Origin: Candidatus Spechtbacteria bacterium RIFCSPLOWO2_12_FULL_38_22
Lineage (GTDB): Bacteria; Patescibacteriota; Minisyncoccia; Spechtbacterales; 2-12-FULL-38-22
Reading direction: 5' to 3'
Assembly (NCBI GenBank): GCA_001820055.1
Contig: MHOK01000001.1
Coordinates: forward strand, 1-37,972
DNA length: 37,972 nucleotides
A program made the position numbers and the translations under genes. Shown one piece after another: positions 768-37,158 of the stretch; the first letter of the stretch is position 1; every line of letters starts with the position of its first letter. Below the pieces are notes generated by a model, which made no database searches, was not told the origin of the DNA, and saw nothing but the letters and a program-made list of their open reading frames with translations.

Positions 768-1078
768 GCCGGACTAGCTCATTGGTAGAGCGTTGCCCTG
801 GATTCTTCGGGGCCTCTAATAGTAATATTGGATGTAAAAATTGGGTGAATTCGGGGAAACCCCGACATAATGTCGGGACAATTCCGAGCCAAGCCAAAAA
901 GGGTATAAGTTTTTTGGAAGGTGTAGAGACTAGTGAGTGAGTCCCAACAATAATCTCACATTTAGCGCCCAACTCCGTACCCCCGAGAGAACGGAGATGA
1001 TATAGTCCAATCCCTAAAGTAATTTAGGAGTTAAGGAAGAGGCAAGCGTACCCAGTTCGATTCTGGGGTCCGGCACCA
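768..1078 (+). tRNA. tRNA-Phe(GAA), split by a group I intron; CCA encoded
   Basis: Exon 1 is 768-799 and exon 2 is 1036-1075, followed by an encoded CCA (1076-1078). Joined, they give a canonical 72-base body: acceptor GCCGGAC/GTCCGGC, D-stem GCTC/GAGC, anticodon stem TTGCC/GGCAA with loop CTGAAGA, T-stem CCCAG/CTGGG and A73. The anticodon is GAA (Phe). The break lies between U33 and G34. The splice sites are fixed by two pairings inside the intron, described under that entry. This is the only tRNA-Phe in the window. Confidence 0.9.
800..1035 (+). ncRNA. group I self-splicing intron in tRNA-Phe
   Basis: A 236-nt intron without an ORF. Near its 5' end the internal guide sequence UCUUC (804-808) GGGGC (809-813) pairs both exons: GGGGC with exon-1 GCCCU, giving the required U-G wobble at the splice site (P1), and UCUUC with exon-2 GAAGA (P10). 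The last base, G1035, fits the terminal guanosine. Inside are stretches matching the conserved core of tRNA-Leu-type introns: GAAACCCC near 855, CCGAGCCAAGCC near 885, GGTGTAGAGACT near 920, and GATATAGTCC near 1000 (S element). A CCTAAA/TTTAGG hairpin (P9) precedes the 3' site. The core resembles subgroup IC3, but the subgroup was not tested. Confidence 0.92.
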
Positions 1079-6173: not shown

Positions 6174-7343
6174 TTACTCTGCTAACTTTAATGCAATTTT
6201 ATATTCGGCTGGGTCTATGCTTGTGATTTCAAATTTATATTTTTTACCCTCTTTTAATTTGTCTTTTAACTCTTGTTCATCTTTGAATTCCGATATATGC
6301 AGGAGTCCTTGTATGCCTTCTTCTATTTTCACTAAGGCTCCGTAAGCGCTTATTTTTGCAACCTCTGCTTCTAGTTGGTCTCCAGCTTTATATTTTTTTT
6401 CTATGCCTTCCCATGGATTATTTTTTAAGGCCTTTAGCGATAAGGAGACTTTTCCATCTTCTGCGATATCTACGATTTTCGCTTTCATTTTGTCTCCAAC
6501 TTTTACTATATCGTGAGGGTCTTCTATCAAACTCCAATCAAGTTCTGATATGTGTATCAAACCTTCAAGCAGGGGATCAAATTTAATAAAAGCTCCAAAG
6601 TCCACAACACCAGTTATTTCTCCCTCAACTTCATCACCAATTTTATATTTACCTAGGGCTATTTGTACGGATTCACTTCCCGCCGCTTTTTCTGAAAATA
6701 TAAGTTTATTTTCTTTCTGGTCCGCGTCCAAAATTTGTACTTGCATTTTTTTACCTATAAAACCTCGCAATTCTTGCAATATCTTATTTTTATCCCCGCC
6801 TTCTACTCTGGGGTAGTGTGCCGGTGCAAGCTGGCTCACGGGCAAAAATCCGCTGACATCTCCCACGACGCCCATCAACCCGCCTTTGTTTGCATCTGTT
6901 ATTTCTATTTCAATAATTTTTTTATTCCTTTGCGATTCTTGTATGTGTTGCCAATTTTTTTCCTGCTTAGCTTCTTTTAAGGATAGTTCCCTGTAACCAT
7001 CTTCGTTTTCAACTTCTATTACTTTGGCAGTCAGTTCATCTCCTGGTTTTAATTTTTTTATTTCATCTTGCGCTTTCAAATATTCGGCTCCATAGACGAC
7101 ACCAGTTCCTATGTGTCCTAGGTCTATATAAAGCACACCTCCTTCTTTATCTATAATTTTACCTTCTACAACATCGCCCTTTTTAGGCAACTGAAATAAA
7201 GATTTGTCAGTTTGCACAACTGATTTCATAGCATTTTTACCTGCCTGACCGGTAGGCAGGCCTGCCTGACCGGTAGGCAGGCCAGCTTGTCGCATGTTAT
7301 TTGATGTAGGCAGGCTTGATTGTTTTGTAGTTATGTCTAACAT
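6174..7343 (-). CDS. rpsA: 30S ribosomal protein S1 (four S1 domains)
   Basis: S1 is an RNA-binding protein that helps the 30S subunit capture mRNA, likely important here because most genes lack Shine-Dalgarno sites. Four S1/OB repeats are visible: from GDVVEGKI (about residue 54), a degenerate second one (GGLMGVVGDVSGFLPVSQL), GDEVEGEITGVVDFGAFIKF, and GDQLEAEVAKISAYGALVKI. The count is lower than the six of Escherichia coli S1 and typical of short S1 forms. Residues 19-36 repeat AGLPTGQ, encoded by two tandem 21-bp palindromes. The native start may therefore be MKSVVQTDKS (about residue 39), with the palindromes in the leader; the long form is kept because the frame is open. Confidence 0.9.
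   Translation of the reverse strand: MLDITTKQSSLPTSNNMRQAGLPTGQAGLPTGQAGKNAMKSVVQTDKSLFQLPKKGDVVEGKIIDKEGGVLYIDLGHIGTGVVYGAEYLKAQDEIKKLKPGDELTAKVIEVENEDGYRELSLKEAKQEKNWQHIQESQRNKKIIEIEITDANKGGLMGVVGDVSGFLPVSQLAPAHYPRVEGGDKNKILQELRGFIGKKMQVQILDADQKENKLIFSEKAAGSESVQIALGKYKIGDEVEGEITGVVDFGAFIKFDPLLEGLIHISELDWSLIEDPHDIVKVGDKMKAKIVDIAEDGKVSLSLKALKNNPWEGIEKKYKAGDQLEAEVAKISAYGALVKIEEGIQGLLHISEFKDEQELKDKLKEGKKYKFEITSIDPAEYKIALKLAE
7240..7281. repeat. tandem pair of 21-bp palindromes inside the rpsA 5' region
   Basis: Two head-to-tail copies of a 21-base unit, 7240-7260 and 7261-7281, each nearly self-complementary around ACCGGT. The period of 21 keeps the frame and is read as LPTGQAG twice on the minus strand. 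A partial copy (TAGGCAGGC) lies near 7308. The unit is related to the CCTGCCTG...CAGGCAGG palindromes at 7529, 36650 and 37892. Confidence 0.9.
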
Positions 7344-36704: not shown

Positions 36705-36791
36705 TGGCGGAGGCGGGAGGATTCGAACCTCCGAGTCCTTTCGGACGCTGGTTTTCAAAACCAGTGCGATAAACCACTATGCGACGCCTCC
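36705..36791 (-). tRNA. tRNA-Ser(UGA), CCA encoded
   Basis: Class II cloverleaf on the minus strand: acceptor GGAGGCG/CGCCTCC, anticodon stem CTGGT/ACCAG with loop TTTGAAA (UGA), long variable arm, T-stem GGAGG/CCTCC, G73 and encoded CCA (36705-36707). The GIY-YIG reading frame enters it from upstream and uses the anticodon TGA as its stop. Confidence 0.95.
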
Positions 36792-37060
36792 TGTTGGTTG
36801 TACGATTTATTTAAAAATGTTTTTTTCAGCATTTTTGTGATGGTTCTTTTGCCCCAGCCACTTTTGAGGTATTCTTCTCTATCTTTGGCATCATTTTTGT
36901 TCAGGAATGCTTCGTAAAAGATAAGCTGATATGGACGAAATGGTTTTGTCGCTAAACTTTTTCCTTCGTTGTGTTCCTTAAATCGTTTTTGTAAATCGGA
37001 GGTATATCCTATGTATAAACTTTTGTCTTTTTTACTTTGAAGAATATATACGTAATACAT
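36755..37060 (-). CDS. GIY-YIG nuclease-domain protein running into tRNA-Ser
   Basis: 101 residues from MYYVYILQSK (earlier Met codons lie in the 94-bp repeat). The family signature is complete: YVYILQS, SLYIGYT, the catalytic-type Arg in LQKRFKEHN, and a Glu in LIFYEAFL. KDREEYLKSGWGKRTITKML ends the usual domain; the last ~11 residues (EASHSGLSHWF) are encoded by the 5' half of tRNA-Ser, and the TGA stop is its anticodon. Single-domain proteins of this type are small DNA endonuclease-like factors. The gene lies between two tRNA-Ser genes and begins five bases after the 94-bp repeat. A decayed relative sits at 305-560. Confidence 0.85.
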   Translation of the reverse strand: MYYVYILQSKKDKSLYIGYTSDLQKRFKEHNEGKSLATKPFRPYQLIFYEAFLNKNDAKDREEYLKSGWGKRTITKMLKKTFLNKSYNQQEASHSGLSHWF

Positions 37061-37064
37061 AAAG

Positions 37065-37158
37065 ATGGAAGGCGAAACGTACAAATTGCTTCGCAATTTT
37101 ACGTTCCAGCAACGTAAAAACGTATAATTTTCAAAGAAAATTTACGTTTTGTACGTTG
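37065..37158. repeat. 94-bp repeat, copy 2, abutting the 3' end of tRNA-Ser(GCU)
   Basis: Nearly identical to 22448-22541. Its right end again touches the discriminator base of a minus-strand tRNA. Its left end is five bases from the GIY-YIG start codon. Confidence 0.9.

Follow-up and report, generated by a model that had tools for sequence, protein, structure and literature searches.

A group I intron between U33 and G34 of a tRNA-Phe(GAA) gene and related introns at the same site across Patescibacteria

In the window, the whole stretch of 37,972 nucleotides that was analysed and contig 1 of its genome, a tRNA-Phe(GAA) gene is present in two pieces at positions 768-1078, where U33 and G34 are separated by 236 nt (Table 1). 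The default mode of ARAGORN, without the intron option, reports no tRNA at 768-1078. With introns allowed, the program called tRNA-Phe [768,1078] i(33,236) unaided and at the same junction, and the joined exons form the perfect tRNA-Phe(gaa) cloverleaf with GAA anticodon that had been claimed from the sequence (75 nt, all stems paired). An ORF scan of the 236 nt yielded 12 codons as the longest reading frame and no endonuclease ORF, the feature that characterizes mobile homing-endonuclease introns. The intron lacks an ORF and at present is not mobile by itself. Simple scans near the tRNA cluster of the window detected neither a promoter nor a terminator. At the other end of the window, a short ORF on the minus strand (36755-37096), which may resemble a GIY-YIG protein, overlaps the tRNA-Ser(TGA) gene (36705-36791).

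Table 1. Features of the interrupted tRNA-Phe(GAA) gene, in window positions
Feature	Position	Strand	Basis
tRNA-Phe(GAA) exon 1, nucleotides 1 to U33 (GCCGGACTAGCTCATTGGTAGAGCGTTGCCCT)	768..799	+	ARAGORN, joined exons and unspliced locus
Group I intron, 236 nt, ends in G, no ORF	800..1035	+	RF00028; exon joining and guide; ORF scan
tRNA-Phe exon 2, from anticodon GAA on, CCA encoded	1036..1078	+	ARAGORN
Internal guide UCUUC-GGGGC	804..813	+	Pairing with both exons; covariation in 87 introns
P2 hairpin, GUAA loop	815..832	+	Double changes at 7/7 pairs, 64 introns
P3 5' strand, pairs with 966-972	841..847	+	99.3% of cells paired, double changes at 4/7 pairs
P4 (851-854/884-887) around P5 (861-867/871-877), elements P and Q	851..887	+	
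P6 (888-890/920-922) and P6a (894-900/911-917)	888..922	+	64-intron helix count
P7 5' strand in R element (AGAGACUA), pairs with 1003-1007	928..932	+	100% paired, invariant in 64 introns
Extra domain, type A, GUGAG-UGAGUCCCAACAAUAAU-CUCAC, between P7 5' and P3 3' strands	933..959	+	Insertion relative to RF00028
P3 3' strand	966..972	+	64-intron helix count
P8 hairpin	973..996	+	83.7% paired, double changes at 6/6 pairs
P7 3' strand in S element (GAUAUAGUCC)	1003..1007	+	64-intron helix count
P9 hairpin, GUAA loop	1013..1028	+	Double changes at all pairs; about half of relatives without P9

The intervening sequence has the anatomy of a group I intron. The Rfam model RF00028 (Intron_gpI) matches positions 790-1029 over its full length (model 1-253 of 253) with 83.7 bits compared to a gathering threshold of 50 and an E-value of 4.9e-20. 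This match bears out the original prediction of a group I intron between U33 and G34, including the P3-P7 core that a covariance model was expected to recover. Helices P3 to P8 with the P3/P7 pseudoknot and the P, Q, R and S elements are present, exon 1 terminates in a U (799) that faces G 809 of the guide, and the last base of the intron is a G (1035), as is typical of group I introns. The predicted guide pairings with both exons were likewise recovered: nucleotides 804-808 (UCUUC) pair with 1036-1040 of exon 2 (GAAGA) to form P10, and nucleotides 809-813 (GGGGC) pair with 795-799 of exon 1 (GCCCU) to form P1, with a U33-G wobble at 799/809. In folding calculations the pre-tRNA was more stable than shuffled sequences (z -3.3).

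At least 87 distinct introns were verified at position 33/34 of tRNA-Phe. The other Patescibacteria introns at this site share the tRNA, the insertion site, the guide arrangement and the core with the window intron, most of them also the type A domain, and are 65-77% identical to it over most of the length. In 87 introns, the pairing between exons and guide is maintained by alternative base pairs at position 31 (C-G in 57, A-U in 29 and U-A in one), position 30 (C-G in 37, G-C in 50) and position 37 (G-C in 56, A-U in 28); the search pattern left these three positions free, so the covariation there was not imposed. A terminal G was not demanded by the search either and is found in 87 of 87 introns. 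The search itself required the U-G pair at the splice site, which therefore constitutes no independent test in the relatives. Across 64 divergent introns, 91.1% of the cells of the proposed P1-P10 structure are paired, and double changes occupy 812 cells compared to 255.6 +/- 19.2 in shuffled data, a control that keeps no relatedness among the sequences. Sliding by one column lowers the pairing to 50% or less; the alignment was not fitted to the structure, but since the window's own sequence supplied the structure, this control is somewhat favourable to it. Individual helices differ in their contribution: P4 is 100% paired with three double-change pairs, P5 is weaker with 62.9%, and P7, being invariant in all 64 introns, gives no covariation signal. 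The anticodon stem between the two exons is 99.4% paired with strong covariation. Because of the E-value of the covariance model and the covariation across 64 related introns, chance can be excluded as an explanation of the structure. Overall, comparison at the sequence level establishes the anatomy, the splice sites and the homology of the tRNA-Phe intron.

Relative to the RF00028 consensus, about 31 nt are inserted between the R element and the 3' strand of P3 in the window intron. The type A domain in this region occurs in approximately 62 of the 87 Phe introns as judged by motif and by eye, or 57 by the strict motif, and its sequence is near-invariant among the Phe introns carrying it. About 24 of the 87 differ from the window intron in having a two-hairpin type B domain, one is masked, and around half of the Patescibacteria Phe introns are devoid of P9. 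The type B domain is also found in tRNA-Asn introns of the host's class. Introns of subgroup IC3, represented by those of tRNA-Leu, are not known to have an extra domain between the 5' strand of P7 and the 3' strand of P3. By this criterion the window intron would fall outside IC3, as it contains the domain at 933-959. The initial description of the core as tRNA-Leu-type thus stands only in part: the extra domain is absent from the RF00028 consensus and from the sampled Leu and fMet introns of the host's class, which lead straight on from the R element. Tentatively, the Patescibacteria tRNA-Phe introns might represent an undescribed structural subgroup that is marked by a near-invariant P7-P3 domain of 27 nt (GnGAG-UGAGUCCCAACAAUAAU-CUCnC) and has become fixed in tRNA genes that are essential and present as single copies. 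All decoding of one amino acid, Phe, would then rely on one ribozyme, and the domain would have a dedicated structural or regulatory role; we regard this combined reading as possible but rather unlikely.

The wider scan comprised contigs of about 85,000 species, and the matches listed represent a lower bound. Among the matches listed, all carriers with a taxon name belong to the Patescibacteria (Ca. Niyogibacteria, Yanofskybacteria, Moranbacteria, Wolfebacteria, Magasanikbacteria, Peregrinibacteria, Gracilibacteria and others), and the remaining ones are labelled only 'bacterium'. Listed pattern matches outside the Patescibacteria (Verrucomicrobiales, Bryobacterales, Clostridia and others) were discarded as masked runs of N, as other tRNAs or because the exon 2 test failed, and an ARAGORN call of Ser(aga) for one locus (L132) was replaced by Phe. 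None of the 10 viral contigs matching the exon-guide pattern contained an exon 2 partner, phage records gave one short match (Rhizobium phage, 81% over 67 nt), and plasmid records gave no match. As a separate observation, several Clostridia MAGs (L174, L214, L217, L229, L233, L234, L237, L241, L243) contain tRNA-Phe-like 5' parts (CTGAAAATCTTTGGTGC) that directly precede a further start resembling that of a tRNA; one case shows two in tandem.

Within the host's class, group I intron matches were obtained for 225 of 384 genomes, and tRNAs for Phe, Asn, fMet, Met/Ile2, Leu and Asp were seen as intron hosts. The pattern of exon 1 and guide is present in 36 of 368 class genomes, in 34 of them in the Phe form according to the matched sequence. 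An intact tRNA-Phe pattern was found in 175 of the 368 genomes. It occurs in 2 of the 34 intron genomes compared to 173 of the 334 others (Fisher p 7e-8), although this exclusivity figure is a lower-quality estimate since the intact-gene pattern misses many tRNA-Phe genes. Both the interrupted and the intact pattern are matched by G121, for which contamination is estimated at 5%, and by G251. Uninterrupted tRNA-Phe genes are found in both other genomes of the window's family and in two of the four further genomes of its order, and in G002 the intact gene adjoins tRNA-Gly(GCC) as in the window. As these relatives are mostly uninterrupted, the distribution of the intron is patchy.

The host genome (G000) is a draft assembly of 623 kb in 24 contigs that is 93.7% complete. 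Its 41 matches to RF00005, evaluated with ARAGORN and, for two partial matches, by direct reading, include no second tRNA-Phe; the suspicion that the interrupted gene is the only copy is therefore upheld for this 93.7%-complete assembly. The other group I intron of this genome interrupts the 23S rRNA gene (L033:2069-2359, corresponding to G000:C24:16068-16358, 47.9 bits). An intact tRNA-Asn(GUU) was found in G000 neither by ARAGORN nor by pattern, and this gene may be interrupted as well or lie in the missing part of the assembly. A further tRNA on the minus strand (L039, G000:C2:700-960) has the loop CTTATAC and a palindromic insert in its D arm (CCTGCCTGCCGGCAGGCAGG). In the window, the GLPTGQAG runs of the ORF at 6174-7343 seem to be encoded by a repeat similar to this insert.

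A quick tree was built from 109 tRNA introns, in which the alignment of these fast-evolving ribozymes is imperfect and half of the branches are open. It places the window intron within 44 Phe introns with an SH-aLRT of 98, and a larger Phe set around them reaches 96. The Phe label requires 3 changes on the tree compared to 32.7 in shuffles. The nearest exon sequence stems from Parcubacteria LiPW_15 (L166), outside the window's family, and this likeness would be compatible with a transfer of the whole gene. The patchy occurrence suggests occasional spread, presumably horizontal, or frequent loss of the intron.

Classical bacterial tRNA group I introns interrupt Leu(UAA), fMet (in cyanobacteria), Ile(CAU) and Arg(CCU). 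The window intron resembles them in its small size, its (near) lack of ORFs, its location in the anticodon loop, the P1/P10 guide and the P-Q-R-S elements, but differs in the tRNA, the position and the ~31-nt insert. The initial impression that position 33/34 of tRNA-Phe was unfamiliar as an insertion site is correct with respect to the classical hosts; as a singular case it does not hold, given the at least 87 introns at this site in Patescibacteria. Introns in genomes of the host's class also occupy the anticodon loop in Asn(GUU) at 35/36, fMet at 36/37, Met/Ile2 at 33/34, Leu and Asp, but differ from the window intron in host tRNA and position and, for fMet and Leu, in the lack of an extra domain. 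Some tRNA-Asn(GUU) 35/36 introns of 519-585 nt (L056, L074, L078, L089, L098, L107, L126) encode proteins of about 105 aa with an HNH-like CxxC...HH...CxxC pattern; the one tested gave a weak Pfam HNH match. ARAGORN labels many of the tRNAs hosting these introns 'Thr(TGT)'; its calls of this kind among the relatives were rejected, as guide and joined loop fit Asn(GUU) 35/36 better. At three other loci (L189:2192-2233, L173, L281), an apparently interrupted tRNA has an exon 1 ending in ACTCCAT followed by GGTGGGTCGTTTGA, possibly representing tRNA-Val(CAC).

PMC8450103 discusses fMet and Ile2 as intron hosts, and PMC8172020 (2021) mentions group I introns in some tRNAs of CPR genomes. A preprint from 2025 (bioRxiv 2025.07.03.662931), which is cited in PMC12641178, deals with a novel insertion site in Patescibacteria tRNA genes and, by its title, concerns the phenomenon seen here in the phylum of the window's host. 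Leaving aside the text of this preprint, the literature searched contains no description of tRNA-Phe as host of a group I intron. The Phe-intron family across Patescibacteria is probably covered in part by the preprint.

Taken as a whole, the locus is best explained, with high confidence, by a group I intron in tRNA-Phe whose guide holds the exons and which is spliced to intact tRNA-Phe. The guide would bind the 5' exon via P1 and, once the first cleavage has taken place, the 3' exon via P10. Following the standard group I pathway, a guanosine would attack after U33, and the free U33 would then attack after the terminal G, thereby joining the exons to intact tRNA-Phe. On the basis of sequence, the intron RNA is predicted to be spliced, and all Phe decoding of the organism would depend on this reaction. 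It appears unlikely that splicing requires a host protein or acts as a translation switch instead of being constitutive self-splicing. Some group I introns do depend on host proteins, as stated in a review (PMC3984707), and the near-invariant type A domain could mark a binding site, but it may be no more than a tertiary contact of the RNA. We consider it very unlikely that the interrupted gene is a decayed or splicing-deficient pseudogene and that an intact tRNA-Phe resides in the 6% that the assembly lacks. The draft state with 24 contigs and the two related genomes in which an intact gene accompanies the interrupted one would agree with such decay, whereas the perfect tRNA formed by the exons, the exact fit of the guide to both exons, the integrity of every core element and the 32 of 34 intron genomes without an intact gene by pattern argue against it. 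Another type of intervening sequence, be it a protein-spliced intron as is usual in archaeal and eukaryotic tRNAs, a group II intron or an assembly artefact, is practically negligible in view of the full-length group I match, the covariation of the core helices and the identical structure and site in at least 87 independently assembled sequences.

An essential tRNA in these reduced genomes appears to depend on splicing by a ribozyme. Standard tRNA finders run without the intron option report tRNA-Phe as missing, which biases completeness estimates and studies of codon use. Finally, introns recur at a single site while their guides and exons change in concert, and this offers an extensive natural data set for the question of how group I introns keep track of their targets.
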